Source: an uncultured Luminiphilus sp. (lineage in GTDB: Bacteria; Pseudomonadota; Gammaproteobacteria; Pseudomonadales; Halieaceae). Taken from it: a stretch of 34,870 bases of DNA. Of the stretch, positions 10,402 to 30,315 are shown piece by piece (within the stretch, counting starts at the first letter, position 1; every line of letters starts with the position of its first letter). The position numbers and the translations under genes are program-made. Below the pieces are notes generated by a model. That model made no database searches. It was not told the DNA's origin and saw only the letters and a program-made list of their open reading frames with translations. The stretch is taken from the NCBI GenBank assembly GCA_938085095.1, contig CALKEI010000088.1:1-34870 (forward strand), given 5' to 3'.

Positions 10402-11808
10402 GTGACAGCCACGCTATTTGACAAACTTTGGCAAGAACATGAGGTGATGACGCTTTCAGAGCGCCAATCACTCTTGTATGTCGATCGTATCTTCCTTCAC
10501 GAGCGGACAGGGAGTGCCGCACTGAACGGTTTGCTCGAGCATAACCGAGCGGTCCGTCGACGCGAGCATGCGTTCTGCACCATGGATCATATTGTCGATA
10601 CGTTGCCCGGACGGGGTGATGACACCTTGATGCCCAGTGGGCGTGATTTTATCGTCGCGACACGTGGCGCGGCCCAAGAAACCGGCATTCAACTATTTGA
10701 TATTCCCGATCCGGATCAGGGGATCGTCCATGTGATCTCGCCGGAGCTTGGGATCGCTTTGCCTGGTCTGTCGCTTATTTGTCCCGATAGCCATACCTGC
10801 ACGCTCGGCGGCCTCGGGGCGCTGGCATGGGGAGTGGGTTCCACCGAGGCAGAGCATGCGCTGGCCACCAGTACGCTTCGTGTCACAAGACCCAAGACAA
10901 TGCGCGTCACATTCGAGGGAGCCCTTCCGAACAGCGCGACGGCCAAAGACCTTATTTTGTATACGATTCGCGAGCTGTCCGGCGCTGGTGGTGCGGGCTG
11001 TGCCATTGAATTTGCTGGCCCGGCGATTCAGGCGTTGGCCGTCGAAGCGCGCCTGACGCTGTGTAATATGGCGACCGAACTGTCTGCCTTCACGGGTTTG
11101 ATCGCGCCTGACCAAAAGGTGTTCGATTACTGCAACGGTCGTCCTTATGCGCCCCGGGGTGACGTTTGGGATCAGGCCAATGCGCACTGGCACGGATTGC
11201 ACAGTGACGAGGGCGCCCGGTTTGATCGCGAACACGTTTTGGACATCCGGGCACTCAAACCCCAGCTCAGTTGGGGCACCAGTCCGCAACACGCTATCGA
11301 TTGGGATGGCGTCGTGCCTCACGTGATTGACGCGCCGGATGACGCCACAGCAGTGGCCTGGCAGCGCGCACAGGATTACATGGGGGTGAGTGGGGGCAGT
11401 CAGTTGTCGGATTACTCTGTTGACGCGGCTTTTATTGGTTCCTGCACCAACAGCCGACTGTCTGATTTACGGCTTGCCGCAGAGTATCTCGCGCGCACAG
11501 GTCACCGCGTGGCCAATAATGTGAAAGCCTTATGCGTCCCCGGGAGCGGACAAGTGAAGCGTGCCGCGGAAGCAGAGGGTCTTGATGAGATTTTCCGCAG
11601 TGCCGGTTTTGAGTGGCGCGAGCCAGGCTGCTCCATGTGCTTTTTTGCGGGGGGTGAGAGCTTCGGGGATGGGGTGCGCGTTGCCTCAACTACGAACCGT
11701 AATTTCGAGGGCCGGCAGGGGCTGGGCGTGCGCACGCACATTGCCAGTCCGCTGACCGTCGTCGCGAGCGCCTGTGCGGGCCATTTGGTCGCGGACATTT
11801 CAGCATGA
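10402..11808 (+). CDS. Aconitase/isopropylmalate isomerase family large subunit (LeuC-like hydratase)
   Basis: DSHTCTLGGLGALAWGVGSTEAEHALATSTL, IGSCTNSRLSDL, PGCSMC and ASTTNRNFEGRQG ([4Fe-4S] Cys set). GTG start. Confidence 0.92.
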   Translation: MTATLFDKLWQEHEVMTLSERQSLLYVDRIFLHERTGSAALNGLLEHNRAVRRREHAFCTMDHIVDTLPGRGDDTLMPSGRDFIVATRGAAQETGIQLFDIPDPDQGIVHVISPELGIALPGLSLICPDSHTCTLGGLGALAWGVGSTEAEHALATSTLRVTRPKTMRVTFEGALPNSATAKDLILYTIRELSGAGGAGCAIEFAGPAIQALAVEARLTLCNMATELSAFTGLIAPDQKVFDYCNGRPYAPRGDVWDQANAHWHGLHSDEGARFDREHVLDIRALKPQLSWGTSPQHAIDWDGVVPHVIDAPDDATAVAWQRAQDYMGVSGGSQLSDYSVDAAFIGSCTNSRLSDLRLAAEYLARTGHRVANNVKALCVPGSGQVKRAAEAEGLDEIFRSAGFEWREPGCSMCFFAGGESFGDGVRVASTTNRNFEGRQGLGVRTHIASPLTVVASACAGHLVADISA

Positions 11809-12437
11809 CGCCTTTCAAGCAGCACACAGGCATCACCGCACCGTTAGTGCGCGATAACATTAATACCGATACGATCATTCCCTCTCGCGAAATGCGAAGC
11901 GTGTCTAGGTCGGGGCTTTCGGAAGGGCTGTTTGCGCCCTGGCGGTACCACGATCCGAATGCGCGCACCCTGAACTCGGCATTTGTGCTGAATGAGGCCG
12001 CTTTCTCCGGCGCCTCAATCCTCCTGACCGGCGCCAATTTTGGCTGTGGGTCCTCCCGTGAGCACGCGGTATGGGCGCTGCTGGAGAGTGGCTTTCGGGT
12101 CATTATTGCAACCTCTTTTGCTACGATTTTTCGCAACAACGCGCTCCGCAATGGGTTGCTGACCATCGAGCTTCACCCCGACCGGATTGAGCAGCTTGCA
12201 GAATGGGTAAGTAGCGATCCACAGGCACATACGCTGGGTGTGGATCTTGAGGCCTGCACGATCAGGCACGATCTGCAGCGTGATGCGGAGACTTTCTCGG
12301 TTGACCCGAGCGCGCGCGATATGTTGCTGCAGGGGCTTGATGAAATCGGACTGACCGAGCAATCTTTAGATGATATTGCCGCTTTCGAGAAAAGGGATCA
12401 GGCGCGTCGGCCTTGGGTGTATCTCGGCACTGATTAG
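11805..12437 (+). CDS. Isopropylmalate isomerase family small subunit (LeuD-like)
   Basis: LVRDNINTDTIIPSREM, ILLTGANFGCGSSREHAVWAL and FATIFRNNALRNGLL. Coupled to the upstream gene by ATGA overlap. Confidence 0.93.
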   Translation: MTPFKQHTGITAPLVRDNINTDTIIPSREMRSVSRSGLSEGLFAPWRYHDPNARTLNSAFVLNEAAFSGASILLTGANFGCGSSREHAVWALLESGFRVIIATSFATIFRNNALRNGLLTIELHPDRIEQLAEWVSSDPQAHTLGVDLEACTIRHDLQRDAETFSVDPSARDMLLQGLDEIGLTEQSLDDIAAFEKRDQARRPWVYLGTD

Positions 12438-13648
12438 GCGCTCAATACGCCTTCTTGGGTGAGATGGGCAATGGCCTCTTCATCCAGTCCGAGCTCTATC
12501 AATACCTCGCGATTATGCGCTCCTGCCTCGGGCAGATCACGATGCAGAGGAGGTTTATGGCTTCCAAACTCCACCGGCAAACGCGGCAGAGTCGTCTCTT
12601 CTCCCGCGCGATCACCCTCAGTCAGATGCACCGGTAACAATCCGCCCGACGCGGTCAAATGAGGATCATCAAACAGGTCCCCGGGGGTATTGATCGGCGA
12701 GAAAGGCAGGCCTGCGCGCGCTAATCGTTCACTCAAGGTGGCCAGTGTCATGGGCGCAAATAACGCTTTTATGGCGGGAAGCAGTGTTTCTCGTGCGGCA
12801 ACGCGATCGGCGTTGTGGGCGAGGGTGCTGTCCGACGCCCAGTCAGCCAGGCTAAATTCTTCGCAGAAGCGTTGCCATAGCGTGTCACTGACGATCCCCA
12901 CAAACAGCCTCTCGCCCGAGTCCAGTTCGAAAATGTCATAAACCGCCCATGCGGATTGCCGCACTGACATGGGTGGTGGCGGCTCACCGCTCACCGCTTG
13001 CTGCGCCATGTGCTGGCCAACGAGAAACGCGGTGGTTTCAAACAGGGCGCTCGTGACATGACTGCCCTCCCCGGTTTCCCGGCGACGATGCAGCGCGGAG
13101 AGGATGGCAATCACACCAAACATGCCGCCGGTGATATCAATGACTGAAGAACCGGCACGTAAGGGCCGTTCCGGGAGCCCGGTCATATAGGCCAGACCGC
13201 CCATCATCTGGGTGACTTCGTCGAGCGCGACGCGGTTCTCGTAGGGGCCTGATAGAAATCCTTTGAGCGAGCAATAAATGAGGCTGGGATGGTTGGCCTT
13301 GAGCGAATCGTAGTCGAGTCCCAGGTTCGCCATCGTGCCCGTGCGGAAGTTCTCCAGGACAATGTCAGCCGACTGGATTAGCTGCAGTGCGACCTCGCGG
13401 CCCTTTGGGTTTTTTAGGTCGAGGGCGATCGATCGCTTGTTTCGGTTGTACATTGGAAAGTACCCGGCGCCAGAGCCTTTCAGGCGCCGCGTATTGTCAC
13501 CTTTCAGTGGTTCGACTTTGATCACATCGGCACCGAGGTCACCTAAAATGACACCTGCGGTGGGGCCCATAACCATGTGGGTGAATTCAACAACTCTAAT
13601 TCCTCGCAGCGGAGCTGCTTGCTCCTCTGCCCCCGGGCGCCCCGTCAT
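12434..13648 (-). CDS. CaiB/BaiF (class III) CoA-transferase
   Basis: LRGIRVVEFTHMVMGPTAGVILGDLGADVIKVEPLKGDNTRR, NRNKRSIALDLKNPKGREVALQLIQSADIVLENFRTG. Confidence 0.95.
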   Translation of the reverse strand: MTGRPGAEEQAAPLRGIRVVEFTHMVMGPTAGVILGDLGADVIKVEPLKGDNTRRLKGSGAGYFPMYNRNKRSIALDLKNPKGREVALQLIQSADIVLENFRTGTMANLGLDYDSLKANHPSLIYCSLKGFLSGPYENRVALDEVTQMMGGLAYMTGLPERPLRAGSSVIDITGGMFGVIAILSALHRRRETGEGSHVTSALFETTAFLVGQHMAQQAVSGEPPPPMSVRQSAWAVYDIFELDSGERLFVGIVSDTLWQRFCEEFSLADWASDSTLAHNADRVAARETLLPAIKALFAPMTLATLSERLARAGLPFSPINTPGDLFDDPHLTASGGLLPVHLTEGDRAGEETTLPRLPVEFGSHKPPLHRDLPEAGAHNREVLIELGLDEEAIAHLTQEGVLSA

Positions 13649-13672
13649 TACTGCCTCTCCAGATGATTTGTT

Positions 13673-13688
13673 ATGATGTTATATCATT
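13673..13688. promoter_or_regulatory. Operator-like site E: ATGAT-gttat-ATCATT
   Basis: Reverse complement contains AATGATATA; in the 67-bp divergent gap 13649-13715. Confidence 0.5.
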
Positions 13689-13715
13689 AAGCTCTTTACA
13701 GTAGCAAAGTAGAAC

Positions 13716-14723
13716 ATGACAACAACCGTGGACAATCTCGCCGTCATCCTTCAACAACGCCCTGAAGGTTTGCCCAACCTCGATGACTTCGCTCTGGAGA
13801 GTCGGCCGTTGGGCTCCCGCACCGCGGGACAGGTGCGATGCGAGACCCTTTATCTGTCACTGGATCCTTACATGCGGTCGGTGATCGCCGGCAATCATCT
13901 CGGTCACGGGATCGACCCCGGTGACGTGATTCCCGGCGAGGTGGTCGCCCGTGTGTCGGAGAGTGACGATTCGAATTGGCCGGTTGGGACCGCGGTGCGT
14001 TGCCACGGCGGTTGGCAACAAGTGAGCGATCACGCTCCGGAGGCGCTGTCTCGTGTTCCGACAGGTCTTACCCGTCCTTCTCTGGCACTTTCGATTCTCG
14101 GCATGCCTGGATTGACGGCTTGGGCCGGTATGGTGGATCTGGCCAAAGTCGGTGAAGGTGATGTGGTGGTGATACCGGCCGCGGTAGGGGGCGTCGGTGC
14201 CATGGCGGCACAGCTGTCAAAGCGCGCGGGCGCTACCACCATCGCGATTACCAGTGGCAGCGAGAAGTGTCGTATTGCCCTTGAAGAACTGGGATACGAT
14301 CACTGCATTGACCGCAATGAGGAGGATCTGGCGGGCGCGCTGTCAACGATCGCACCACAAGGTGTCTCGGTTTACTTTGACCTCGTAGGTGACCCGATAT
14401 TAACGACCGTGGCACAGCAGCTGTCCATCGGTGGCCGAGTGGTCCTGTGTGGCCTGATCAAGGATTACAATGGTGATCACAAAACCACGGGGCCGCACCC
14501 CGGTTTATGGATTACCAAGCGCGCCACCGTGAGCGGTCTGGTGGTTTACGACTACGAGCCTCAGCGAGGCGCATTCGAAGACGAATTTGTGCCCCTTGCC
14601 GAAGCCGGGAAGCTGGTGGGGAATGAAGAGATGCACAATGGGCTTGAGGCCGCCCCCGAGGCGTTCTGCCAATTGATGCGGGGACTGAACCACGGCAAGG
14701 TGGTTGTGCGCGTCGGTGAGTAA
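13716..14723 (+). CDS. NADP-dependent medium-chain oxidoreductase (MDR, CurA/leukotriene-B4 reductase-like)
   Basis: LYLSLDPYMRSVIAG, GDVIPGEVVARV, VIPAAVGGVGAMAAQLSKRAGATTIAITSGSEKC and YFDLVGDPILTTV. Confidence 0.9.
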   Translation: MTTTVDNLAVILQQRPEGLPNLDDFALESRPLGSRTAGQVRCETLYLSLDPYMRSVIAGNHLGHGIDPGDVIPGEVVARVSESDDSNWPVGTAVRCHGGWQQVSDHAPEALSRVPTGLTRPSLALSILGMPGLTAWAGMVDLAKVGEGDVVVIPAAVGGVGAMAAQLSKRAGATTIAITSGSEKCRIALEELGYDHCIDRNEEDLAGALSTIAPQGVSVYFDLVGDPILTTVAQQLSIGGRVVLCGLIKDYNGDHKTTGPHPGLWITKRATVSGLVVYDYEPQRGAFEDEFVPLAEAGKLVGNEEMHNGLEAAPEAFCQLMRGLNHGKVVVRVGE

Positions 14724-14733
14724 AGGAAGCCCC

Positions 14734-15675
14734 ATGAAGCAGATCACGATTAGCGAAGTCGGCCCCAGAGACGGGCTGCAAAGCGTCGATACCATTTTGT
14801 CTACCGAGGGGAAGCTCACCTGGATCGAGGCAGAATATGGAGCAGGTGTTCGGGAAATCGAGGTGGGTTCGTTTGTTTCTCAAACCTTACTGCCACAGAT
14901 GGCTGATACCGCGGCAGTGGTGAAGGGCGCGCGCCGGCACACCGATTTGGTCATTGCAGTGCTCGTGCCAAATGTTCGCGGATGTGAAGCCGCTCTCGAG
15001 GCGGGTGCGCATAAAATCTCGATACCGCTCTCCCTGAGTGAAACTCATAGCCTGAAAAACGTGCGCCGCGACCATGCCCAGATGCTAGAGGAGATCGCTG
15101 CGTGCCAGGCGCTAGTGAGTCAGGTGCCTGAGGCGGACCGCCCCTGCTTTGAAGTCGGTTTAGCGACCGCATTTGGCTGCACGATTGAGGGAGCGGTGGA
15201 CGAAGCTTTTGTGATTGATATGGCGGCTCGAGTGCTGGAAATGGGGGTCGCTGAGGTCGGTTTGTCAGACACCACCGGGATGGGAAATCCGGCTCAATTG
15301 GAGCGCTTGGTGACGGGCATTTGGCAGCGTTGCGGGGAGTCTCGTCTTACCGGCGTGCATTTGCACAACACCCGTGGTCAGGGTCTGGCTAATGCCTTGC
15401 GGGCGGTCGAGCTGGGTATTACTACCCTCGACAGCTCCCTGGGCGGCCTGGGCGGCTGCCCCTTTGCTCCGGGCGCCAGTGGCAATATTGTGACCGAAGA
15501 TCTGGTCTTTATGCTCGCGTCTATGGGGTATTCAACCGGTATTGATCTAGAGGCGTTACTCGCGGTGCGCCATCAGGTGGCGGCGCTTTTGCCAGAAGAG
15601 GAATGGTTTGGTTTCACCGCCTCGGCGGGGCTGCCCAAACACTTTGAAAAGATGCCTATGCGGGAAGCCAGTTGA
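14734..15675 (+). CDS. Hydroxymethylglutaryl-CoA lyase family (DRE-TIM) enzyme
   Basis: ISEVGPRDGLQS, VGLSDTTGMGNPAQLERLV, GVHLHNTRGQGLAN and GGLGGCPFAPGASGNIVTEDLV. Start at 14734 after AAGGAAG. Confidence 0.93.
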   Translation: MKQITISEVGPRDGLQSVDTILSTEGKLTWIEAEYGAGVREIEVGSFVSQTLLPQMADTAAVVKGARRHTDLVIAVLVPNVRGCEAALEAGAHKISIPLSLSETHSLKNVRRDHAQMLEEIAACQALVSQVPEADRPCFEVGLATAFGCTIEGAVDEAFVIDMAARVLEMGVAEVGLSDTTGMGNPAQLERLVTGIWQRCGESRLTGVHLHNTRGQGLANALRAVELGITTLDSSLGGLGGCPFAPGASGNIVTEDLVFMLASMGYSTGIDLEALLAVRHQVAALLPEEEWFGFTASAGLPKHFEKMPMREAS

Positions 15676-15676
15676 G

Positions 15677-17122
15677 ATGACGGCGTCGATGTTACCGGTT
15701 CGTAATCCGCGAACCGGTGAATATGATTACGAGATTCCGGTCACTTCGGCCGATGACATTAATTCGATTACTGCCGACTTGCGCGCGGCGCAAATGCAGT
15801 GGTCAACCCTTGGCGCGGAGGGGCGCGCCGAAGTCCTCAACCGTTTTGCCGATTCAATGACGACCGAGATGGGGCCCCTTGCGCAGGCGCTGTCAGCGGA
15901 TACCGGTCGCACCACATTTGCACAGTTTGAGGCGATGAAATCGGTTGAGCTGATTCGCATGTGGGCGGAACGCGCTGGCCCTATTCTGCAAGACCTGGCG
16001 GGCTCAGGTCAGTCGGGACAGGTCCCCGCGGTGCACTATCAGCACCGCTTGATTCCTTACCCAGTGGTCGCGGTGATCAGCCCCTGGAACGTTCCTTTAT
16101 TGCTCGCCATGATCGACAGCCTGGCGGCACTGGCCGCAGGATGTGCGGTCTTGCTGAAGCCCTCAGAGGTGACGCCGCGATTTGTTGCGCCGCTGCAGCG
16201 CGCGCTTGATGCAGTTCCCGAGCTTGCGGCGGTGCTGCACATCGTGACGGGCGGACCGGACACGGGTAAGGCGATGATCGAAGAGGTGGACGCGGTCTGT
16301 TTTACTGGCAGCGTGAAGACAGGACGGCAAGTGAGCCAGCAAGCTGCAGCGTGCTTTATTCCCGCGTTTTTGGAGCTGGGAGGCAAGGACCCTGCCGTTA
16401 TTTTGCCCGACGCAGATGTGCCTCTGGCAGCCCGCGCGATTATCCGCAGCGCGATTGGTATGACGGGTCAGGCTTGTCAGTCGCTGGAGCGAGTTTACTG
16501 TCACGAGAGTATTTCAGAGACAGTAACCGAAGAGCTCCTCAGGCAGCTAAGCGAGCTCTCGCTCACCTGTTCTGAAGATGGCGCCGGCGACATTGCGCCG
16601 CTGATTTTTGAGCGGCAGGTGAACATTATTCAAGCTCAGGTCGACGACGCACTGGCCAAGGGCGCGACCTGCCTGCTGGGCGGTGAGCCCGTTCGAGCTG
16701 GCGGGGTCTGGTATCCACCGACGCTGCTGACCAACGTGAATCACACTATGTTGATCATGCAAGAGGAGACTTTTGGTCCCGTGATTCCGGTCGTAGCGTT
16801 CAGTGATGCTGACGAAGCTGTGGCGCTGGCGAATGACTCGAAGTTTGGCCTCTCAGCAGCGGTGTTCTCGACAGATTCCCGCGCCGCTATTGCCGTAGCG
16901 GAACGATTGCAGGTGGGCGCAATCAGCATTAATGACGCGTCGCTGACGGGTATTGTTAACGACGTTGAAAAGAACAGTTTCCGCTTCTCGGGCATGGGGG
17001 GGTCGCGCATGGGCCCTGCCGGGCTGATCCGTTTTGTGCGCAAGCGCGCACTGCTCATACAGACTGATGAGCCTGCTCGGGTGCAGCTATTTTCAGATAC
17101 AGCACTCTCAAATACACCATAG
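15677..17122 (+). CDS. Aldehyde dehydrogenase superfamily
   Basis: VVAVISPWNVPLLLAM, CFTGSVKTGRQVSQ, FLELGGKDPAVIL and GQACQSLERVY (catalytic Cys). Confidence 0.95.
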   Translation: MTASMLPVRNPRTGEYDYEIPVTSADDINSITADLRAAQMQWSTLGAEGRAEVLNRFADSMTTEMGPLAQALSADTGRTTFAQFEAMKSVELIRMWAERAGPILQDLAGSGQSGQVPAVHYQHRLIPYPVVAVISPWNVPLLLAMIDSLAALAAGCAVLLKPSEVTPRFVAPLQRALDAVPELAAVLHIVTGGPDTGKAMIEEVDAVCFTGSVKTGRQVSQQAAACFIPAFLELGGKDPAVILPDADVPLAARAIIRSAIGMTGQACQSLERVYCHESISETVTEELLRQLSELSLTCSEDGAGDIAPLIFERQVNIIQAQVDDALAKGATCLLGGEPVRAGGVWYPPTLLTNVNHTMLIMQEETFGPVIPVVAFSDADEAVALANDSKFGLSAAVFSTDSRAAIAVAERLQVGAISINDASLTGIVNDVEKNSFRFSGMGGSRMGPAGLIRFVRKRALLIQTDEPARVQLFSDTALSNTP

Positions 17123-17497: not shown

Positions 17498-18775
17498 TCA
17501 GGACACGAAGCCATAGAGCACCCCTGCGATTTTCCGCAGCTGAATTTCTTCTGCACCTTCGGTGATTCGATAGCGCCGGTGGTGACGGTAGATATGTTCA
17601 AACGGTTTGTGGCGGGAATACCCCATACCACCATGAAATTGCATGGCGGTATCGGCTGCATTACAGACCAATCTGTTAGCCCGGTAGTTGCACATTGACA
17701 CTTTGTCGGTCAGCTTTTTTGCGACATCCACTTTATCCATTTGATCCATTTGCGCCGCCGTTTTATAAATTAATAGACGTAGCATTTCGGCTTCGGTCTG
17801 CAGCTCTACCAGCGGAAACTGAATCCCTTGATTGGCTGATAGCGGTTTGCCGAACGGTGCGCGTTTCTGCGTATAGGAAAAGGTCTCATCGAGGCAGTAT
17901 TGAGCGGCCCCAAGGGACGAGGCAGCTTGGCGGATACGGCTCTCGTGAACAAAGTGCATGGCGACTTTAAGCCCCTGCTCGACATCCCCCAGCACGTCCC
18001 TGTCGGGGACAAAGACCTCATTTAGAGTGCAGTGGGGATGGTCGGTAGGCATATTAAAGGTCCAAAGATACTCCCCGATCTGAAAGCCCTCGGCCTGGGT
18101 CGAGGCAACAAAACAGCCAATACCCCGGGGGCTACCGTCTTCTCCTGAGTGGCGCGCGAAGACCATAACGTGACTGGCCTTATGCAAACCGGTTGTCCAC
18201 ATTTTTTCGCCGGTAATCGACCAACCTTCCACGCCCTCTTTCGTCGTTCGCTCGGCGCGGGTTTCCATCCAGGTCGCATCCGATCCGTGGGCAGCTTCAG
18301 TGAGGCCAAAGCACCAGCCCAGCTCACCTTGCAAGAGCGGCTCCATCCATCGGTCTTGCTGATCCGCCGTGCCAAAATCGCGCAGCATCATCGGAGTCAT
18401 CAGATTGCCGACGATCGAGGTTTCGTTTTGTAGGTCGTTATGTAACCCAAGACCTTTGGCGGCGAGGTGCTCACGAATCCGAGCCATGGCGAGATTACTG
18501 CCACCCTGGCCCCCGAATTCTTCCGGTAGGGCGTAGCGAAAGTGACCTGCGGCATCGGCGCGCTGGCGCATTTCCTTTAGCAATGCCTCCCAGTCTTCGC
18601 GGGGTAGGCCATCTCTGTCCCAGTCGGTTCGCGCGTGCTCTCTTCGATGGTCGAAGAAGCGGATATTGTCATCCTGCATTTCAAGGGGTTTGATCTCGCG
18701 CTCGATAAAATCATCAAGCACCAGAAGATAGTCTTCAATGGAGCGGGGAATGTCGAACAGGAAAGACTCAGTCAT
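17498..18775 (-). CDS. Acyl-CoA dehydrogenase, LvaC/ACAD10-11-like by context
   Basis: ALPEEFGGQGGSNLAMARI, WCFGLTEAAHGSDATWMETRA, RAPFGKPLSANQGIQFPLVELQTE and FHGGMGYSRHKPFEHIYRHHRRYRITEGAEEIQLRKIA. Confidence 0.95.
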   Translation of the reverse strand: MTESFLFDIPRSIEDYLLVLDDFIEREIKPLEMQDDNIRFFDHRREHARTDWDRDGLPREDWEALLKEMRQRADAAGHFRYALPEEFGGQGGSNLAMARIREHLAAKGLGLHNDLQNETSIVGNLMTPMMLRDFGTADQQDRWMEPLLQGELGWCFGLTEAAHGSDATWMETRAERTTKEGVEGWSITGEKMWTTGLHKASHVMVFARHSGEDGSPRGIGCFVASTQAEGFQIGEYLWTFNMPTDHPHCTLNEVFVPDRDVLGDVEQGLKVAMHFVHESRIRQAASSLGAAQYCLDETFSYTQKRAPFGKPLSANQGIQFPLVELQTEAEMLRLLIYKTAAQMDQMDKVDVAKKLTDKVSMCNYRANRLVCNAADTAMQFHGGMGYSRHKPFEHIYRHHRRYRITEGAEEIQLRKIAGVLYGFVS

Positions 18776-18870
18776 AGATTATGAGTGCCTCGTGAAAGCC
18801 TGCAGCACCGCCTTATGGTAGGGCGCAATAACGGAGTGCCTTTGTCGATAGGGTAATAGGATAGAGCGTA

Positions 18871-19293
18871 TCAAGTATCGCGTGCGCGCCATTTTTTTTC
18901 TGCAATGGCACGGCTCGCATAACGCGGGTTGTTGATGGCCGTTACCAGAAGCTGCCGGGCTTTGAGGTAGTTCATAAAATCGGTGTCTGGAGCAAGCTTT
19001 CGCTCAGCCAGTGCTCTTGCTAATCGCTGCGCAATAGTAGCCCCTGATTCGGCACCCGGCAGCCATTGTTGGGCGGCCTTGGTGTCGAGTGCAACCAAAT
19101 CCTCGTGTAGGTTTTGCTCGCGCTCGATGATGCCTAGCACATTAGCAGCGACACGCGCGTTGAACTGCTCTCGCCCCGAAAGTGCCGGTAGTGCGCTCTC
19201 CATGAGAAAGCTTTTGACGGCTCCCAGCAGCTCTAAGGACGACACGTCAGTCGGGGTACCGTTGTCGTTATCCTGTGTCACGAGTCTTCCCAA
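18871..19293 (-). CDS. Small LvaB-like (DUF6285-type) partner protein
   Basis: 140 aa; SSLELLGAVKSFLMESALPALSGREQFNARVAANVLGIIEREQ, sandwiched between the kinase and acyl-CoA dehydrogenase genes; 16-nt overlap with the kinase gene. Confidence 0.7.
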   Translation of the reverse strand: MGRLVTQDNDNGTPTDVSSLELLGAVKSFLMESALPALSGREQFNARVAANVLGIIEREQNLHEDLVALDTKAAQQWLPGAESGATIAQRLARALAERKLAPDTDFMNYLKARQLLVTAINNPRYASRAIAEKKWRARDT

Positions 19294-20291
19294 GCCTCTA
19301 TCAGTAGCAGCATATCCAGTTCCGCCTCTGAGCGTCGGCGAGCAATAGCTGCGCGTTCTACATCACCGTTGCCACTGTGCCAAAGTGCGCCCATTGTTTG
19401 ACAGACCAATCCCCAGCTCAGTGCGGCAAAAATTTCCCAGTAGCGCACAGTGGTGAGTTCTGGCGCCCAACCCGCTATAGACTCGTAGCCTGCAATCAGA
19501 TCCTCATAATGACCGAAGCCGCCCACTGGCTTATCCAGGCGCCCGAATCGCCAGACATAGGCACATAAATAACCAAGGTCTTCTTCCGCCGGCCCCTGGT
19601 GAGCCAGTTCCCAATCGAGTACGCCGGCTAGTCCTTTGTCATCAATTAGTAAATTGCCGGTCCGGAAATCGCCATGAAGCAGCACGCAAGCAGCCTCCCT
19701 GGGCGCATGGTCGATCAGCCAGTTAAGGCCGAGTTGCATCACCGGAGACCCATCACCAAAAGCATGCAGTCTTTTCTGCGCGGCCCCGAACCGTTTTTCA
19801 AGCGTTGTAGGTGCCACTGTGTTGGGCAGCTGCGTGCAGTCGATCGCATGGATACGGGCCAGAGCCTCGCCGCACTGAAAGGCAAGGTGTTCCCGAGCGG
19901 CTTCGAAAGTGGCATCTGTTAGCCACCGCTGAGGAATGCTTTCACCCGGGATAAAATCCATGAGGAAAGCCTCCCCAACGGGATGCGCCGCGTCAAACAC
20001 CGCATATATCTCAGGCACTGGCACCTGCGCTGCGCTCGCAAGCTGAATCACGGCCGCCTCATCCTTTAGTGACAGACCAAGGATATTACCCTCGAGGTTG
20101 TCCACTGAATCTGCAGAGAAGGGCCTGCGCCGGAGGATCAGTGGGGTATCCCCCCAGCTGAGTCGCCAGGTCTCATTAACGGCGCCGCCAGATAGCCGGG
20201 TGAGTTGGTCGATCCGATCACCCGGCACTTTCCCTGCCAAGGGCGCACGCAAGGCGACATTGAGTTGTTCCGACAGCTTTTCGTGGGACAT
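19278..20291 (-). CDS. Aminoglycoside-phosphotransferase-fold kinase, LvaA/ACAD10 kinase-like
   Basis: LSGGAVNETWRLSW, CVLLHGDFRTGNLLIDDKGLAGVLDWELAHQGPAEEDLGYLCAYVWRFG (HxDxxxxN and DWE). Confidence 0.92.
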   Translation of the reverse strand: MSHEKLSEQLNVALRAPLAGKVPGDRIDQLTRLSGGAVNETWRLSWGDTPLILRRRPFSADSVDNLEGNILGLSLKDEAAVIQLASAAQVPVPEIYAVFDAAHPVGEAFLMDFIPGESIPQRWLTDATFEAAREHLAFQCGEALARIHAIDCTQLPNTVAPTTLEKRFGAAQKRLHAFGDGSPVMQLGLNWLIDHAPREAACVLLHGDFRTGNLLIDDKGLAGVLDWELAHQGPAEEDLGYLCAYVWRFGRLDKPVGGFGHYEDLIAGYESIAGWAPELTTVRYWEIFAALSWGLVCQTMGALWHSGNGDVERAAIARRRSEAELDMLLLIEAWEDS

Positions 20292-20334: not shown

Positions 20335-21525
20335 CTAGCCCTTCTCGATCTGGAAGGTCAAACCCGCGTGTTCCTGTAATCGTTCTATCAAGGCATCGCC
20401 CATCGCCGCGGCCGGCGTCCATATGCCACCTGAAGCCAGCTCAGGATTTTTCAATAAACAGATGGCTGCTTCAGCCAGCATTTTTGAGGTTGATCCGTAG
20501 CCCGGGTCACGGTCACCCTGAACGCTACTGATCATCAATTCGCCTTCGCTGCTCTCTCCCACAAAAATGGCATCGTAGTTGCCGTTCTCCCGCTCTTCTT
20601 TACTGGGCCCTTCGCCCGGCTTCAGGTCGCTCTTCGCTACCGAGTCATCTTTGGCAACATATTCGGCAGTCGCTTTGCCTTGATCGCCGTCGCCAGTTAG
20701 CAGCATTTCGTCGTAACAGAAATTCTCGCCGTACTGATGTCCCAGCAAATAGTTAGAGCGGTGAATATTTTTGGTGTTGATGGCTGCCATGATAAAGGGC
20801 GCACTCCAGCTTTGAAGCTCCTCGTCATACTGGGGTGTCATGCCGGCCGGTTGCTCCGGTCCGGTGAAGCCCTCGGTCAGTGCGAAGGGGTTGGTCAATA
20901 TCTGAATCAGTGCAGGGTTCGCCTTAGCTGAGGCCATTGTGGCATGCATCGAAGCGATGGTGCCGCCTGAGAACGTCCCGTTCATAGCACGCACGCGTCC
21001 TTTTACGGTGGCGAGGGGCTGGCCAGTTTTGTCAATGGCATGCTGTTGCAGCAAATAGACGCCGAGATCAAAAGGGATCGAATCAAAACCGCAGCTGTGC
21101 ACAATCCGCGCACCCGATGCTTTTGCTGCCTCGCTATAACGCGCGATGGTCTCGTGCATCCAGCTCGGTTCGCCTGATAGATCGACATAATCGGTGCCGC
21201 GCTCGGCGCACTGCTTGACGAGCGATTCACCGTAAAGTTGATAAGGCCCGACCGTCGTAATCACGACCCGGCTCGCATCGACCATTTGCGCCACGGATTC
21301 AGGGTTGTCTGCGTCAATGGCCATTAACTCTACGGAGTCGCTGATACCCATCTCGGCCCGGACCGCGGCGAGTTTTTCTAGCGATCGCCCGGCCATCGCC
21401 CATTTCAGGTCTGCGGCACTATATTCTGCTGCGAGGTATTCAGCGACGAGGCGCCCGGTGTAACCCGAAGCGCCAAAAACGACGATATCAAACGGTTTGG
21501 GTGCGGTGGTCATGATGACAATCAC
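20335..21525 (-). CDS. Saccharopine-dehydrogenase-like (trans-acting enoyl reductase family) oxidoreductase
   Basis: FDIVVFGASGYTGRLVAEYLAAEY, DADNPESVAQMVDASRVVITTVGPYQLYGESLVKQCAERGTDYVDLSGE, IVHSCGFDSIPFDLG. Confidence 0.92.
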   Translation of the reverse strand: MIVIMTTAPKPFDIVVFGASGYTGRLVAEYLAAEYSAADLKWAMAGRSLEKLAAVRAEMGISDSVELMAIDADNPESVAQMVDASRVVITTVGPYQLYGESLVKQCAERGTDYVDLSGEPSWMHETIARYSEAAKASGARIVHSCGFDSIPFDLGVYLLQQHAIDKTGQPLATVKGRVRAMNGTFSGGTIASMHATMASAKANPALIQILTNPFALTEGFTGPEQPAGMTPQYDEELQSWSAPFIMAAINTKNIHRSNYLLGHQYGENFCYDEMLLTGDGDQGKATAEYVAKDDSVAKSDLKPGEGPSKEERENGNYDAIFVGESSEGELMISSVQGDRDPGYGSTSKMLAEAAICLLKNPELASGGIWTPAAAMGDALIERLQEHAGLTFQIEKG

Positions 21526-21645
21526 TCCAGAGTGTTATTTTGTGGGGGAGCAAGGGTAACCCCTCGGCACGGCGACTGGGAAAATTTTATTACCGAGACG
21601 GCAATCACCGTTTCTTCATCGCTCCCGCATGACTATGATCGCCGT

Positions 21646-22392
21646 ATGGAGATTGATTGCATCACACGCCATACGATTGAGCGCCTTTTGGCTGCAATCG
21701 AGTCGCGTGATTTGCGTGCGATCCGCACTGTGCTCCACACAGATGTGACCTGGCAAAACGTGCCTCATCCGCCTGCCACAGGCAGGGAGGCAGTCGTGGC
21801 CCTATTGGGAAATATACTGTGCTGGTCAGACAAGGTGCAGTGGGATGTGGTGTCAGCATCAGTGAGTGGCGCCACCGGCTGGTATGAGCGGCTTGATCGA
21901 TTCTGGTTGGATGGCGAAGAGTATGCGGTTCCCTGCAATGGTGTGCTGACGGTGGACTGTCACACGCAGTCGATTATTGCGATGAAGGATTATGTTGACC
22001 TTGGCGAATGGCGCAGCAGGGTGACACCAAAATTGGCGTCACTGGCTGCCCGGCCTGCCGCGGCCGTGGTAGCGCGACATCTCAAGGCGGTTAGGGCCCT
22101 CGACCCTGTTGCGATGGCCGCAGACTACGCTCTGGGCGCAACGTTAGAACGCCCTGGTGCCCGGTACGGTGATTGGTATGCCATTGCAGATTACTTTGCG
22201 TCGGTTCCTGAACGACTGGCTGGGCGCCAGCTTATTTTGGGTGAAGTGGAAGTGGCGGGTCCCGACGCCGCGCAGGTCGTTTGGGAGGTGACTGGCGCCA
22301 CTGACTCGGTGGTCTCGGGTAGAGACCTTTTTCGGGTCAACGAGGGCAGGATTTTTCATCAGGTCACCACGCTCGATGAGGGCGATTTTTGA
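21646..22392 (+). CDS. Protein with two SnoaL/NTF2-like modules
   Basis: First module ERLLAAIESRDLRAIRTVLHTDVTWQNVPHPPATGREAVVALL; second VARHLKAVRALDPVAMAADYALGATLERPGARYGDWYAIADYFASVP. Start 21646 favoured over GTG 21532. Confidence 0.65.
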   Translation: MEIDCITRHTIERLLAAIESRDLRAIRTVLHTDVTWQNVPHPPATGREAVVALLGNILCWSDKVQWDVVSASVSGATGWYERLDRFWLDGEEYAVPCNGVLTVDCHTQSIIAMKDYVDLGEWRSRVTPKLASLAARPAAAVVARHLKAVRALDPVAMAADYALGATLERPGARYGDWYAIADYFASVPERLAGRQLILGEVEVAGPDAAQVVWEVTGATDSVVSGRDLFRVNEGRIFHQVTTLDEGDF

Positions 22393-23074: not shown

Positions 23075-24157
23075 ATGCAAATACTCCGTACCCCTGACGC
23101 GCAGTTTGAAGGCCTTGCCGAATACCCCTTTGATCCGCATTACACGGAAGTCGATTCCGGTGAGGGGGAAACCCTGCGGATCCATCATATTGATGAAGGT
23201 GACCGTCATGCGCCCATTGTGCTGTGCCTGCATGGTCAACCGAGTTGGAGCTATCTTTACCGCAAGATGGTGCCGTTGCTTGTGGCGTCCGGATTGCGCG
23301 TCGTCGCCCCTGATCTGCCCGGATATGGAAAATCTGACAAACCCGCCGCTCGCGAGAACTATAGCTATCAAAGGCAGGTTGATTGGATGGGTCGCTGGCT
23401 GGAAGCAAACGACTTTGCCGAGATGACTTTTTTTGGACAGGACTGGGGCGGCTTGATCGGGCTGCGGTTGGTGGCCGATTACCCCGACCGTTTTGCGCGG
23501 GTTGTAGCAGGCAATACCGCACTTCCCCTCAACTCCAGCCTAGACAAACAAATTGTCGACAAAGTAATGGCTTTTCGTGAGGACGGTCAGCGACTCAGTT
23601 TTTCCGCTATGGGCCGTGCCCTGTCGCGTCTTAAAGGGATGGCAATCGAGCCTGACGCGTTCCCAATGGGTTTTGCTCATTGGCAGAAGTTTTGTTGGAA
23701 CACCGCAGATATGCCGGCAGGATTTCTCATGGAAATGATGATCGCCCCCCCCGCGACCTGGCGAGTCGCGCCGCAAGTACTCCTAAATCACTATCTGGGC
23801 ACCTCTATCCGACCCAAGACGCCATTAGGCCGGGCCTACGAAGCGCCTTTCCCTGACCCCAGCTATAAAATGGGACCCCGCGCGATGCCCAGTCAGGTAC
23901 CGACACTCCCCACCGATCCTTCTCTGGATGCTCAGAAAAAGGCCTGGGAGTTCTTCCTTCAGTTCAGCAAGCCTTTCCTTTGCCTGTTCACTGGAGATGA
24001 TCCCGTGACACGGGGCGCAGAAAAGAGCTTCATTGGGCGGGTGCCGGGCACGACGGGTCTTAATCATCAGATATTTCCAAAGGGTGGGCACTTTCTTCAG
24101 GAATCACGTCACCGCGAGCTCAGCGCGGCGATTAGTGACTTGATCAGCACGACCTAG
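23075..24157 (+). CDS. Haloalkane-dehalogenase-like alpha/beta hydrolase (HLD-I, DhlA type)
   Basis: CLHGQPSWSYLYRKMVPLL, APDLPGYGKSDKP, GQDWGGLIGLRLV (nucleophile D, adjacent W), GFAHWQKF (second W), YEAPFPDPSYKMG, GDDPVT and GGHFLQES. Confidence 0.85.
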   Translation: MQILRTPDAQFEGLAEYPFDPHYTEVDSGEGETLRIHHIDEGDRHAPIVLCLHGQPSWSYLYRKMVPLLVASGLRVVAPDLPGYGKSDKPAARENYSYQRQVDWMGRWLEANDFAEMTFFGQDWGGLIGLRLVADYPDRFARVVAGNTALPLNSSLDKQIVDKVMAFREDGQRLSFSAMGRALSRLKGMAIEPDAFPMGFAHWQKFCWNTADMPAGFLMEMMIAPPATWRVAPQVLLNHYLGTSIRPKTPLGRAYEAPFPDPSYKMGPRAMPSQVPTLPTDPSLDAQKKAWEFFLQFSKPFLCLFTGDDPVTRGAEKSFIGRVPGTTGLNHQIFPKGGHFLQESRHRELSAAISDLISTT

Positions 24158-25564: not shown

Positions 25565-26497
25565 ATGGACGATGAGCAAAAAGCCCGAACAGCACTGCCG
25601 ACAGTGCTGACACAATATAGTAAAGCGGAGGCGCTACCTGAAAGCCTCGCCGATGCCTTCCTCAAGTGGTACGCGGGCGTCACTCACCACCTGGCGATAT
25701 GGGCCAATGAACGCGAAACACCGCCATTGGTGGGTATAAGCGGCTGTCAGGGGTCGGGCAAGAGCACGCTGGTGCAGCTGATGGCACATGTTCTGTGTGA
25801 GCTTCACGATGTCTCCGTGGTCGTGCTCTCGCTGGATGATTTTTACCTCCCCAAGGCGGCGCGAAGAGCGATGGGCAAAACCGTTCACCCGCTGTTCGCC
25901 ACGCGGGGAGTGCCCGGCACCCATGACTTGGCTTTGCTGTCCGACACGATTGACGCGTTGCGGAGTGCGCGTGGACCAGTGGCCGTGCCCACCTTCGACA
26001 AAGCCCGGGACGAACGCACCGAAATGGGGCATTGGCGCCAAGTGAGTGCGCCGGTGCAGCTGATTTTACTTGAAGGCTGGTGCATGGGGGTTCCCCCCCA
26101 GCGGGGAGCCGACCTGCTGGCACCAGTAAATCGCATCGAGGAGGAAGAGGATTCGGATCTGACCTGGCGGACCGAGGTGAATCGTCAGCTCAGTGGCGGT
26201 TACGCAGACCTATTCGCAGGGCTCGATGCATTGCTGTTGCTTCAGGCGCCAGATTTTGATGCGGTCTTTGAGTGGCGCTGGCAGCAAGAGCAGCGTCTGT
26301 CGGAGCGATTCCGGCGTCACCATCCGGACGCTTCAGATCCGACTATGGGTCGCGACGAGATCGCTGACTTTGTGTTGCATTATCAGCGACTCACCGAGCA
26401 TGCCCTGAGAACATTACCCGATCGGGCGGATTTTGTATGGGAGCTTGAGGAAGATCGCTCGGTGAGACGCATGCGTCTAACGGGGGCGGCGGCATGA
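25565..26497 (+). CDS. D-glycerate 3-kinase (GLYK-type P-loop kinase)
   Basis: GISGCQGSGKSTLVQLM, VVLSLDDFYLPKAARR, HPLFATRGVPGTHDL, FDKARDER and LLEGWCMG; operon context. Confidence 0.85.
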   Translation: MDDEQKARTALPTVLTQYSKAEALPESLADAFLKWYAGVTHHLAIWANERETPPLVGISGCQGSGKSTLVQLMAHVLCELHDVSVVVLSLDDFYLPKAARRAMGKTVHPLFATRGVPGTHDLALLSDTIDALRSARGPVAVPTFDKARDERTEMGHWRQVSAPVQLILLEGWCMGVPPQRGADLLAPVNRIEEEEDSDLTWRTEVNRQLSGGYADLFAGLDALLLLQAPDFDAVFEWRWQQEQRLSERFRRHHPDASDPTMGRDEIADFVLHYQRLTEHALRTLPDRADFVWELEEDRSVRRMRLTGAAA

Positions 26498-27372
26498 GTA
26501 GCGCAGTGATTTACACCGACCTCGACGGCACGTTGCTTGATCACCACACCTATTCGTTTGATGCAGCGCGCTCGACAATCGCCGCACTCAGCGAGCGCGG
26601 CATCCCTGTGATTCCCTGTACCAGCAAGACCCGTTCCGAGACGGCAAAGCTGATGGAAGCATTGGGACTTGATGGGCCAATGATCGTGGAGAACGGTGCC
26701 GCGATTTGGGTTCCCAAGGATTGGGGTCTGGACCGGCCGGAAAATGCTGACGACGACGGAGATGCTTGGGGTCACTCTTTTGGGCCTTCACGCGGCGTGA
26801 TTCGACGGCAGTTGGCCATCCTGAATATTGAGTGGGGTAATCGTTACCAGTCTTTATGTGATCTGTCGGATAAACAGGTCGCTGCCGTCACGGGACTGGA
26901 TCTTGACAGCGCAGCGCGCGCAAAACAGCGACAGCATTCCGAAACCCTGGTGTGGCTAGGTACACCGGCAGACCGAAAGGCGTTTGCCGCGCACGTGCAG
27001 GCGCTAGACATGCACTGCGTTCAGGGTGGTCGGTTTGTTCACGTGCTGGCTTCGGGTGGCAAGGCGGAGGCAGTCAGTTGGCTACATAACAAAATCCGCA
27101 AAGAGCGCTGCGACCTTGAGCTGGCGCGCAGTCTATCTGCGGGGGATGCCGAGAATGATGTCGAGATGCTTGAAGTAACTGATCTTGCGCTGTTGGTGCG
27201 ATCGCCGGTCAATGAACCGCCGACGGTGCGCCGCCAGTGCCGACTGGTCATCAGCGATGCCATGGGCCCGGCAGGGTGGGCCGAGGGCATTGAAGCGCTT
27301 ATTGAACGAGTGGAAGAGGAGGAAGGCCGTGGCCGACTTTTATCAAAACGGCACGATCACAACGCTGCATAA
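26494..27372 (+). CDS. HAD phosphatase, mannosyl-/glucosyl-3-phosphoglycerate phosphatase
   Basis: IYTDLDGTLLDHHTYSFDAARSTIAALSERGIPVIPCTSKTRSE, IVENGAAIWVP and LSAGDAENDVEMLEV. Confidence 0.88.
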   Translation: MSSAVIYTDLDGTLLDHHTYSFDAARSTIAALSERGIPVIPCTSKTRSETAKLMEALGLDGPMIVENGAAIWVPKDWGLDRPENADDDGDAWGHSFGPSRGVIRRQLAILNIEWGNRYQSLCDLSDKQVAAVTGLDLDSAARAKQRQHSETLVWLGTPADRKAFAAHVQALDMHCVQGGRFVHVLASGGKAEAVSWLHNKIRKERCDLELARSLSAGDAENDVEMLEVTDLALLVRSPVNEPPTVRRQCRLVISDAMGPAGWAEGIEALIERVEEEEGRGRLLSKRHDHNAA

Positions 27373-28582
27373 CTTGGGCGAACGCTCTACCGCTGAACTG
27401 GAGCAAGAATTACTGCAATTCAGCGAACGCAGGCCATTGGGGTTGATACTGCCCTCTCTTTACTCGGAGATCGAGACGCCAGCACTACCCGCTATTATTC
27501 AGGAGTTGCGATCAGTCCCATACCTATCTCAAATTGTGATTGGTCTGGACCGTGCGACTCAGGACGAGTACCAGCACGCGCTGCACTTTTTTTCCGATCT
27601 TCCGCAGCACCACCGCGTGCTGTGGAACGATGGGCCACGATTGAAAGCCATTGACGCTCGGCTACAGGAGTCGGGTCTCGCGCCCCAGGAGCTCGGCAAG
27701 GGGCGTAACGTCTGGTACTGCATGGGTTACGCGTTGGCTACCGGTCGAGCGGAAGCCATAGCTCTGCACGACTGCGACATTCTGACTTATGAGCGGAGCT
27801 TGCTAGCACGCCTTATTTACCCAGTCGCGCACCCTATTTTTGGTTACGAGTTTTGCAAGGGTTATTACCCTCGGGTATCCGAGAACAAAATCAACGGCAG
27901 GGTTTGCAGGCTCTTGGTGACGCCCATGATCCGTGCGTTGAAACGTATCGTTGGGGAGTCGCCCTATCTCAATTATCTCGACAGTTACCGCTACATCCTC
28001 GCAGGAGAGTTTGCGTTCCGGAAACGCTTGCTCGGTGATCTGCGAATCCCCACCGACTGGGGTCTGGAGATCGGAGTGGTCTCGGAGGTCTACCGCAGCA
28101 ACAGCAACAAGCAGATTTGCCAGGTCGACATCGCGGATAACTACGACCACAAGCATCAGGATCTGTCGCTGGACGATCAGAATGCGGGCCTGTCGCGCAT
28201 GTCACTCGATATTGCGCGATCTCTGTACCGCAAGCTGGCGATACAGGGCACGGTATTCAGTCAAGAAACATTCCGAACGTTAAAGGCTACCTATTATCGG
28301 ATGGCGCTTGATTTGATCGAGACCTATCGTAACGACGCCATCATGAATGGCTTGAATTTCGATATTCACAAGGAAGAGGAGGCGATCGAGCTGTTTGCTG
28401 AGAATATTCTCGAGGCGGGCGTGCAGTTTCTGGAGCGATCGTCCGAGGTGCCCTTTATTCCTACCTGGAATCGAGTATTCAGCGCGATGCCCGATATATT
28501 TGAAGAGTTGGTCGCCGCAGTAGAGGCCGATCATGAGGAATTTTCTCCCGCGCGTGAGTTGCCCAAAGTCGCCCAAGGATGA
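27329..28582 (+). CDS. gpgS: Glucosyl-3-phosphoglycerate synthase
   Basis: LGLILPSLYSEIETPALPAIIQEL, LHDCDILTYERSLLARLIYPV, FEFCKGYYPRVS-type segment and NYDHKHQDLS. GTG start after GAGGAAGG, overlapping the phosphatase by 44 nt. Confidence 0.88.
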   Translation: MADFYQNGTITTLHNLGERSTAELEQELLQFSERRPLGLILPSLYSEIETPALPAIIQELRSVPYLSQIVIGLDRATQDEYQHALHFFSDLPQHHRVLWNDGPRLKAIDARLQESGLAPQELGKGRNVWYCMGYALATGRAEAIALHDCDILTYERSLLARLIYPVAHPIFGYEFCKGYYPRVSENKINGRVCRLLVTPMIRALKRIVGESPYLNYLDSYRYILAGEFAFRKRLLGDLRIPTDWGLEIGVVSEVYRSNSNKQICQVDIADNYDHKHQDLSLDDQNAGLSRMSLDIARSLYRKLAIQGTVFSQETFRTLKATYYRMALDLIETYRNDAIMNGLNFDIHKEEEAIELFAENILEAGVQFLERSSEVPFIPTWNRVFSAMPDIFEELVAAVEADHEEFSPARELPKVAQG

Positions 28583-30315
28583 TCAGCACCTTATCTCAGC
28601 GGCTGCGGGAACACCTGGCTGCGGTCTATGGTGAGGCCTTTTCAGATGGCGCGCTGAACGGCTGGGTTGATCGTTTACTCGACGCCGCGCAACTGACAGC
28701 AACGGCGTCGCCGCCATCGGCACACCGCAATCTATGGGATGAGACCGATGTGGCGGTGATCACTTATGGCGACTCACTGCTCAACGGTGAAGAGGCGCCG
28801 CTCAAGACCCTGCACGGATTTTTGACCCAACGATTGGGCGCACTGGTGAGCTGGGTGCACGTGCTGCCCTTCCACCCCTGGACCTCGGATGATGGTTTTG
28901 CGGTGCTCGATTACTCGAGCGTTAATGAGGCGCTCGGCACCTGGTCAGACATCACCCGGTTGGGCGTCGACTATCGCCTGATGGCGGATCTCGTGCTCAA
29001 CCACTGCTCGAGCCGATCGGCCTGGTTCGAGAATTTTCGCAAGGGTGAGGCACCCGGAGACGATTATTTTTTCGCCCCCGATGAGACATTTGATACCGGC
29101 CAGGTTGTCAGGCCCCGGACCTCTCCACTGCTCAGTAAAGTGACCACGGAGCAGGGCGAGCGGGCGGTGTGGTGCACCTTCGGTCCGGATCAGGTGGATT
29201 TTAATTTCGCCAATCCTGCGGTGGTCGTGGAGTTCGTCACCATCATTCGTCAGCTGCTGGACGCCGGGGTCCGCGTTTTCAGGTTGGACGCGGTGGCGTT
29301 CCTCTGGAAGGAGAGTGGTACCTCCTGCATGAATCTACCCCAGACGCACGAGTTGATCAGACTGTTTCGCCTGATCATCGAGTGCGCCCAGGCCGACGCG
29401 ATTGTCATCACCGAGACCAATGTCCCCAACCGCGAGAACCTCTCCTACTTTGGTCATGCCAATGAGGCCCACGGCATTTACAACTTCTCTCTGCCGCCGT
29501 TACTGGTACATGCGCTGGTCACGGGTACCAGTCGCTACCTGTCGACTTGGATGATGAGCATGCCGCCGGCACAGGACGGCACCATCTACTTCAATTTCAT
29601 TGCCTCGCATGATGGCATCGGGCTGCGCCCGGTGGAGGGTTTGCTGGAGCAGTCGGAGGTCGATGAGTTACTGGCCACGATGGAGCAGTTCGGGGGTCGC
29701 GTCTCATGGCGGCAGGCGGCCGGCAGTGAAGCCAAGCCCTATGAGATCAACATTGCGCTGATAGACGCCCTGCAGGGCACCACCCGTGGCAAGGATCAGT
29801 GGGGGCTCAAGCGCTTTCTCTGTGCGCATGCCATCATGCTGGGGCTCGAGGGCGTGCCCGCTTTTTATATCCATTCTCTGCTGGGCACCCGTAATGACCT
29901 GGAGCGTCTCGCTCACACCAGCCATAACCGGTCTATCAACCGGCATCAATGGGAGCTGAGCGCGTTGTCGAGCGCGCTGGATTGCAACGCATCAGACCAC
30001 CACGGGGTCTTTGAGGCACTGAAGCACCTTATTGCCCTGCGCAAGGCGCAGCCGGCATTCCACCCCAACGCGACCCAATTCACCCTGCACCTGGGTGATG
30101 AGCTGTTCGGGTTCTGGCGACAGTCACTCGATCGGCGCCAGAGCCTGTTCTGTGTGCACAACCTCACCAGTGAAGAGCAGGTCCTGCCGCTGAGCCGCCT
30201 GAATCTTGTGGTCAATCATCGTTGGCGGGAGCTGATTTCCGGGGCGCCCGTCGAAGAAAATTTACCCGAGTGGACGCTTTCTCCCTACCAAACGTTGTGG
30301 ATTACCAACGGCTGA
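28579..30315 (+). CDS. GH13 subfamily 18 phosphorylase, probable glucosylglycerate phosphorylase
   Basis: VHVLPFHPWTSDDGFAVLDYSSVNEALG, DLVLNHCSSRSAWFENF, VDFNFANPAVV, FRLDAVAFLWKESGTSCMNLPQTHELIRLFR, ITETNVPNRENLSYFG; specificity from context. Confidence 0.85.
   Translation: MISTLSQRLREHLAAVYGEAFSDGALNGWVDRLLDAAQLTATASPPSAHRNLWDETDVAVITYGDSLLNGEEAPLKTLHGFLTQRLGALVSWVHVLPFHPWTSDDGFAVLDYSSVNEALGTWSDITRLGVDYRLMADLVLNHCSSRSAWFENFRKGEAPGDDYFFAPDETFDTGQVVRPRTSPLLSKVTTEQGERAVWCTFGPDQVDFNFANPAVVVEFVTIIRQLLDAGVRVFRLDAVAFLWKESGTSCMNLPQTHELIRLFRLIIECAQADAIVITETNVPNRENLSYFGHANEAHGIYNFSLPPLLVHALVTGTSRYLSTWMMSMPPAQDGTIYFNFIASHDGIGLRPVEGLLEQSEVDELLATMEQFGGRVSWRQAAGSEAKPYEINIALIDALQGTTRGKDQWGLKRFLCAHAIMLGLEGVPAFYIHSLLGTRNDLERLAHTSHNRSINRHQWELSALSSALDCNASDHHGVFEALKHLIALRKAQPAFHPNATQFTLHLGDELFGFWRQSLDRRQSLFCVHNLTSEEQVLPLSRLNLVVNHRWRELISGAPVEENLPEWTLSPYQTLWITNG

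Follow-up and report, generated by a model that had tools for sequence, protein, structure and literature searches.

A three-gene module in an uncultured Luminiphilus-like (Halieaceae) bacterium combines a kinase and a small protein of the LvaAB type with an acyl-CoA dehydrogenase-fold flavoprotein that is not LvaC. The module lies on the minus strand of contig C88 (34,870 nucleotides; referred to here as the window) of a metagenome-assembled genome (MAG; 2 Mb; 80% complete). We refer to the flavoprotein as ACAD-W. Kinases of the LvaAB type phosphorylate hydroxy fatty acids in the form of CoA thioesters, which opens these acids to degradation. The module is one instance of a widespread variant and may represent a second version of the LvaABC-like pathway. 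Our preferred reading, which we hold tentatively and at slightly less than an even chance, is that an LvaAB-like kinase works here with ACAD-W instead of LvaC, with ACAD-W handling the phosphorylated hydroxyacyl-CoA.

The module consists of genes for an LvaA-like kinase of the APH/phosphotransferase fold (337 aa; 19278..20291), an LvaB-like kinase subunit of the DUF6285 family (18871..19281 or 19293), and ACAD-W (425 aa; 17498..18775), all on the minus strand and in the order given by the original prediction. That prediction also described a 16-nt overlap between the first two genes. An overlap does exist, but its length of 16 nt depends on a TTG start at 19293, while the sequence also contains a GTG at 19281, which would reduce the overlap with the kinase stop to 4 nt (GTGA). 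Given that relatives have an ATG or GTG start at this junction and that the protein read from GTG 19281 begins MTQ..., like LvaB, the GTG with the 4-nt overlap is the likelier start. The gene for a saccharopine-dehydrogenase-like NAD(P) reductase (Sacchrp_dh_NADP; PF03435, 60 bits; 20335..21525, minus strand) ends 43 nt upstream of the kinase gene and is probably part of the same operon. A double SnoaL-like protein (PF12680 in two stretches; 21532..22392, plus strand) is a divergent conserved neighbor. Both neighbors, identified by Pfam as anticipated, are retained in synteny at split-module Luminiphilus loci. On the convergent side, profile matches and synteny identified four conserved neighbors, namely, a class III CoA-transferase (12434-13648, minus strand), a medium-chain reductase (13716-14723, plus strand), an HMGL-like lyase (14704-15675, plus strand), and an aldehyde dehydrogenase (15608-17122, plus strand).

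The synteny of the three module genes is kept across approximately 10 related contigs. Pairwise pN/pS values were 0.06 to 0.11 for ACAD-W, 0.17 to 0.28 for the kinase, and 0.32 to 0.41 for the DUF6285 protein; all are well below 1, indicating purifying selection on the three genes. Chance adjacency of the kinase and ACAD genes was ruled out by this synteny and by the co-occurrence described below. Pfam scans of the main ORFs of the window detected no acyl-CoA ligase (PF00501), no SDR-type lvaD, and no lvaE, lvaF, lvaG, lvaR, or lva transporter genes, in agreement with the non-levulinate setting that had been proposed for the module.

We compared the module proteins with LvaA, LvaB, and LvaC from the lva operon of Pseudomonas aeruginosa plasmid p12939-PER (L113; gene order: regulator, kinase, LvaB, ACAD, SDR, acyl-CoA synthetase, DUF485, and symporter). 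The window kinase matched APH (PF01636) at 123 bits, has intact catalytic motifs (HGDFRTGN and LDWE), and is 35% identical to LvaA of this operon, which upholds its description as an LvaA-like kinase. The original prediction called the small protein an LvaB homolog and proposed comparing it with LvaB/DUF6285 by HMM. The small protein matched DUF6285 (PF19802) at 55.4 bits (curated cut-off, 28.1), the annotated LvaB of the reference operon (WP_015270461) itself matched this family at 85 bits, and the two proteins are 33% identical; the homology is thus confirmed. No PDB match to the small protein was found by sequence, and no mention of DUF6285 was found in the literature searched.

The DUF6285 family is closely linked to kinases. 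Among 140 DUF6285 ORFs at the loci scored, 52 were fused to an LvaA-type kinase and 85 overlapped such a kinase or lay within 1.5 kb of one, leaving 3 without a fused or nearby kinase (2 of them at contig starts). A natural kinase-DUF6285 fusion (L045) was modeled as a single two-domain protein (pLDDT, 91; pTM, 0.91), which agrees with the reported pull-down of LvaB with LvaA (PMC6692424). On the basis of homology, we infer that the kinase pairs with the DUF6285 protein as the two subunits of an LvaAB-type hydroxyacyl-CoA kinase. In a quick kinase tree with several weak forks, the DUF6285 kinases split into an LvaC-partner group and an ACAD-W group. The window kinase clustered among the DUF6285 kinases and outside the ACAD10/11 clade, and kinases of ACAD-W-free Luminiphilus nested within the ACAD-W group, a pattern that would be expected from partner exchange.

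ACAD-W contains three ACAD domains (PF02771, PF02770, and PF00441; Acyl-CoA_dh_1, 147 bits, plus the N and M domains), a catalytic acid, and a predicted ACAD fold. In the window protein, the catalytic residue is Glu406 and the motif is F275..R280.RQAAS286. LvaC and ACAD10/11 carry Asp and R..R.xHCMR where ACAD-W has Glu and F..R.RQAAS; in ACAD11 numbering, ACAD-W lacks R626, H634, R637, and D753, with Phe at 626 and RQAAS replacing the HCMR stretch. The reference LvaC and a Thermus homolog have the full R626/HCMR/Asp set. The catalytic Asp (D753), R626, and the HCMR motif (H634 and R637) are described features of ACAD10/11/LvaC, and nonconservative substitutions of R626, H634, and R637 affected ACAD activity most severely (PMC12440821). 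At the loci scored, F..R.RQAA(S/G) was present in all 117 ACAD-W sequences and Glu in all 110 that covered the site, and the catalytic Asp was found in 120 HCMR sequences.

ACAD-W sequences formed one clade (support, 100/100) that was sister to the HCMR clade of LvaC/ACAD10/11 (99/95), in a tree that included 21 other ACADs and thus had limited outgroup sampling. Together with the absence of all four diagnostic residues and an identity of 28% between the window protein and LvaC, this separate position rules out LvaC as the identity of the third gene, and the original assignment was abandoned. The two clades share a His near the FAD (corresponding to ACAD11 H597) and, three residues ahead of the catalytic residue, an Arg. 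H246, R282, Q283, and R403 are invariant in ACAD-W, and invariant polar segments cover residues 37 to 50, 116 to 118, 282 to 283, and 397 to 403. The predicted model of ACAD-W matched ACAD structures with E values of about 1e-22; in this comparison, all ACADs scored about equally, and ACAD11 (2wbi) ranked 24th, so that structure gave no information on the placement of ACAD-W. Ordinary acyl-CoA dehydrogenases (SCAD, SBCAD, and CarC) resemble ACAD-W in fold (TM score up to 0.86 by target) and in the catalytic Glu, but the structural matches are at most 28% identical, and ACAD-W differs from them in its own invariant polar segments and its fixed association with kinase-DUF6285. ACAD-W is hosted by alpha- and gammaproteobacteria, Binatota and Myxococcota MAGs, Nocardia, and haloarchaea.

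The occurrence of DUF6285 was assessed in 398 evenly drawn Pseudomonadota genomes, in which DUF6285 was present in 47, ACAD-W in 36, and LvaC (counted at E ≤ 1e-80) in 32. Among the 36 genomes with ACAD-W, 35 contained DUF6285; LvaC was present in each of the 12 genomes that had DUF6285 but not ACAD-W; and none of the 340 genomes without either ACAD contained DUF6285. When counted by genus, with kinship uncorrected beyond that level, DUF6285 was present in 18 of 19 ACAD-W genera versus 8 of 213 others. Since DUF6285 and ACAD-W are distant from each other in several genomes (G241, G130, G188, and others), the co-occurrence exceeds mere adjacency. A kinase lay within 2.5 kb at 39 of 80 ACAD-W loci in the genome collection.

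In the genus and order sample, the two ACAD types also excluded each other as partners: FHCMR or lva-operon LvaC was present in none of 24 ACAD-W genomes and in 7 of 9 ACAD-W-free DUF6285 genomes (G002, G007, G009, G016, G032, G047, and G055); in the first five of these, LvaC was apart from the kinase. The other two of the nine were an incomplete genome (G034) and one with a weak DUF6285 match (G003). In G024, ACAD-W is at a contig end and DUF6285 is absent. Two betaproteobacterial kinase-DUF6285 pairs (L112 and L115), seen as loci only, had no adjoining ACAD-W, and the pair in L115 was followed by another ACAD.

The kinase-LvaB-ACAD order on one strand, the kinase family, and the LvaB/DUF6285 subunit all match LvaABC of Pseudomonas putida, as would be expected if the window encoded a plain LvaABC module. 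This original reading is nevertheless highly improbable, given that the window ACAD belongs to another clade, has only 28% identity to LvaC, and lacks the diagnostic R626/HCMR/Asp residues, and that the scans described above revealed no lvaD, lvaE, lvaF, lvaG, lvaR, or lva transporter genes in the window. A different division of labor is a more serious competitor: the kinase-DUF6285 pair would make the 4-phosphoacyl-CoA, an ACAD10/11-type HCMR enzyme encoded elsewhere would remove its phosphate, and ACAD-W would serve as a conventional FAD/ETF dehydrogenase at a separate step of the same pathway (e.g., the shortening of longer hydroxyacyl-CoAs to the 4-hydroxy stage), and the canonical Glu kept by ACAD-W is consistent with it. 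Each of the 47 genomes searched (35 ACAD-W genomes and 12 with DUF6285 but without ACAD-W) contained a DNA pattern for R626/R631/HCMR, and at least one match of the ACAD10/11 type (RLGPGRIHHCMR) was present in 35 of 35 ACAD-W genomes versus 4 of the 12 others. The genome of the window itself encodes an HHCMR ACAD (C12:460-1683), and an HCMR ACAD is clustered with kinase-DUF6285-ACAD-W at L321/L322 (a proteobacterial genus with large genomes), L137 (Sulfitobacter), and L045 (Halieaceae Ww294). However, HHCMR ACADs are also frequent in the absence of DUF6285, their kinases form a clade of their own, and a division of labor would leave the mutual exclusion of ACAD-W and FHCMR/THCMR LvaC unexplained. 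We regard it as less likely than the preferred reading.

We consider it less likely still that the kinase phosphorylates another hydroxyl group (tertiary, 3-, 5-, omega-, or on a steroid/terpenoid side chain) and that ACAD-W acts on the product or its CoA ester. The 25-hydroxy-steroid kinase of Sterolibacterium denitrificans (9fsg) is a structural neighbor of the fused kinase model (E value, 2e-12) and resembles the window kinase in its APH fold and in turning an alcohol into a phosphate leaving group, and steroid-type Rieske, P450, and KstD-like genes are present in the genome of the window. On the other hand, the identity in the structural match is only about 19%, the steroid kinase acts on a steroid tertiary alcohol and not on a CoA ester, and DUF6285 links the window kinase pair to LvaAB. 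In the steroid system, phosphorylation of the tertiary alcohol is followed by phosphate loss through a lyase (PMC8449060); no lyase gene was found near the steroid kinase.

Several genes for HCMR-clade ACADs were observed outside the window. Contig C12 of the same MAG (L170, 460-15425) encodes the HHCMR/Asp ACAD, two Rieske oxygenases, a thiolase, a P450, and a KstD-like flavoprotein, a gene set suggestive of steroid or terpenoid catabolism. Two further HCMR-clade ACADs, one in the same MAG (L118:750-1961) and one in G006 (L126:1450-2673), have the R626 equivalent and the Asp, with the altered motifs QYAMG and RHGMH, and are further variants of this clade.

The replacement of LvaC by ACAD-W, which we tentatively prefer, draws on several lines of evidence. 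DUF6285 is the LvaB family and is kinase-fused or kinase-adjacent in 137 of 140 ORFs. The co-occurrence with ACAD-W in 35 of 36 genomes, the presence of LvaC in all 12 remaining DUF6285 genomes, and the exclusion in the genus and order sample point to one partner or the other. ACAD-W is sister to LvaC/ACAD10/11 and shares a His and an Arg with them. Lastly, ACAD-W-free kinases are nested among ACAD-W kinases, and the Sulfitobacter module lies in an operon with beta-oxidation genes. Counted against this reading are the missing R626, H634, R637, and Asp and the presence of an HHCMR ACAD in every ACAD-W genome of the draw.

Under the preferred reading, the kinase and DUF6285 pair would phosphorylate the hydroxyl of a hydroxyacyl-CoA, which would probably be a 4-hydroxyacyl-CoA, and ACAD-W would bind the phosphorylated acyl-CoA in the place of LvaC. 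Both the substrate class and the direct action of ACAD-W on the phosphorylated product are inferred. Glu406 and the FAD would activate the alpha and beta positions, and ACAD-W would help expel the phosphate, yielding an enoyl-CoA for beta-oxidation. For ACAD10/11, the proposed sequence is removal of the C2 proton, hydride transfer to FAD, phosphate loss, and hydride return (PMC11342911, PMC12440821). In ACAD-W, the phosphate-binding site would differ from the R/HCMR/Asp site of LvaC and ACAD10/11, with Glu406 as the base and other residues (candidates, H246, R282, Q283, and R403) around the phosphate. A bolder proposal, which we hold with more reserve, is that ACAD-W replaces LvaC as a second, independent solution for flavin-dependent phosphate removal from phosphoacyl-CoAs, one that relies on a Glu base and a phosphate site of a new kind. 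ACAD10/ACAD11 and the bacterial kinase-HHCMR ACAD operons likewise couple an APH-fold kinase to an ACAD-fold enzyme, and, like ACAD-W, their ACADs have the His close to the FAD and the Arg preceding the catalytic residue; in contrast, these ACADs contain HHCMR and Asp, and the associated kinases belong to another clade without DUF6285.

ATP-driven dehydroxylation of 4-hydroxyacyl-CoAs has been resolved enzymatically only lately (LvaABC in 2017 and ACAD10/11 in 2024 to 2025), and the literature calls the mechanism by which the flavin enzyme expels phosphate unclear. A conserved clade that shares the kinase but is missing the residues that have been reported to be essential would offer a natural experiment on this mechanism. 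If the bolder proposal is true, an LvaC-replacing kinase-DUF6285 pathway spans several bacterial phyla and haloarchaea. The analysis also ties DUF6285, a Pfam domain of unknown function, to the LvaB kinase subunit through family membership, natural fusions, and near-obligate kinase linkage. Such loci should not be annotated as lvaABC.

No substrate could be named from the neighborhood, as the flanks vary by lineage: a fused module is situated beside housekeeping genes (L128), the Sulfitobacter module (L137) lies among beta-oxidation genes, and another module (L102) is flanked by an ECH and a CoA-transferase. In the window, the medium-chain reductase is nearest to curcumin/leukotriene reductases with a score below the curated cut-off, and the aldehyde dehydrogenase and class III CoA-transferase assignments are likewise below theirs. 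One might speculate that these three enzymes could turn a 4-hydroxyalkenal into 4-hydroxyacyl-CoA; this route stays speculative because the assignments are below cut-offs and because, in L128, a module of this kind lies by itself between housekeeping genes.

Other Luminiphilus (L127, L128:4676-7323, L129, and L134) have a two-gene cassette of ACAD-W and a fused kinase-DUF6285, which in L128 is situated between housekeeping genes. On haloarchaeal plasmids (L135:4337-7227 and L136:5995-8816), ACAD-W has a phosphotransferase and a small protein next to it. In Natrinema, the small protein had no Pfam match and is therefore not callable as DUF6285; it may be an analog or a diverged form of LvaB.

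Three other regions of the window were observed. Positions 10402-15675 encode a LeuCD-like hydratase pair, the class III CoA-transferase, the medium-chain reductase, and the HMG-CoA-lyase-like gene, are syntenic at split-module Luminiphilus loci, and possibly form a cluster for the catabolism of dicarboxylates or branched-chain acids. A haloalkane-dehalogenase-like alpha/beta hydrolase (23075-24157, plus strand; NF002043, 361 bits; cut-off, 265) is syntenic in split-module Luminiphilus. Positions 25565-30315 (plus strand) encode a PRK-family kinase, a HAD/sucrose-phosphatase-like phosphatase, a GpgS-like glucosyl-3-phosphoglycerate synthase (360 bits, below its own cut-off), and an alpha-amylase-family enzyme, a probable glucosylglycerate-type compatible-solute operon.
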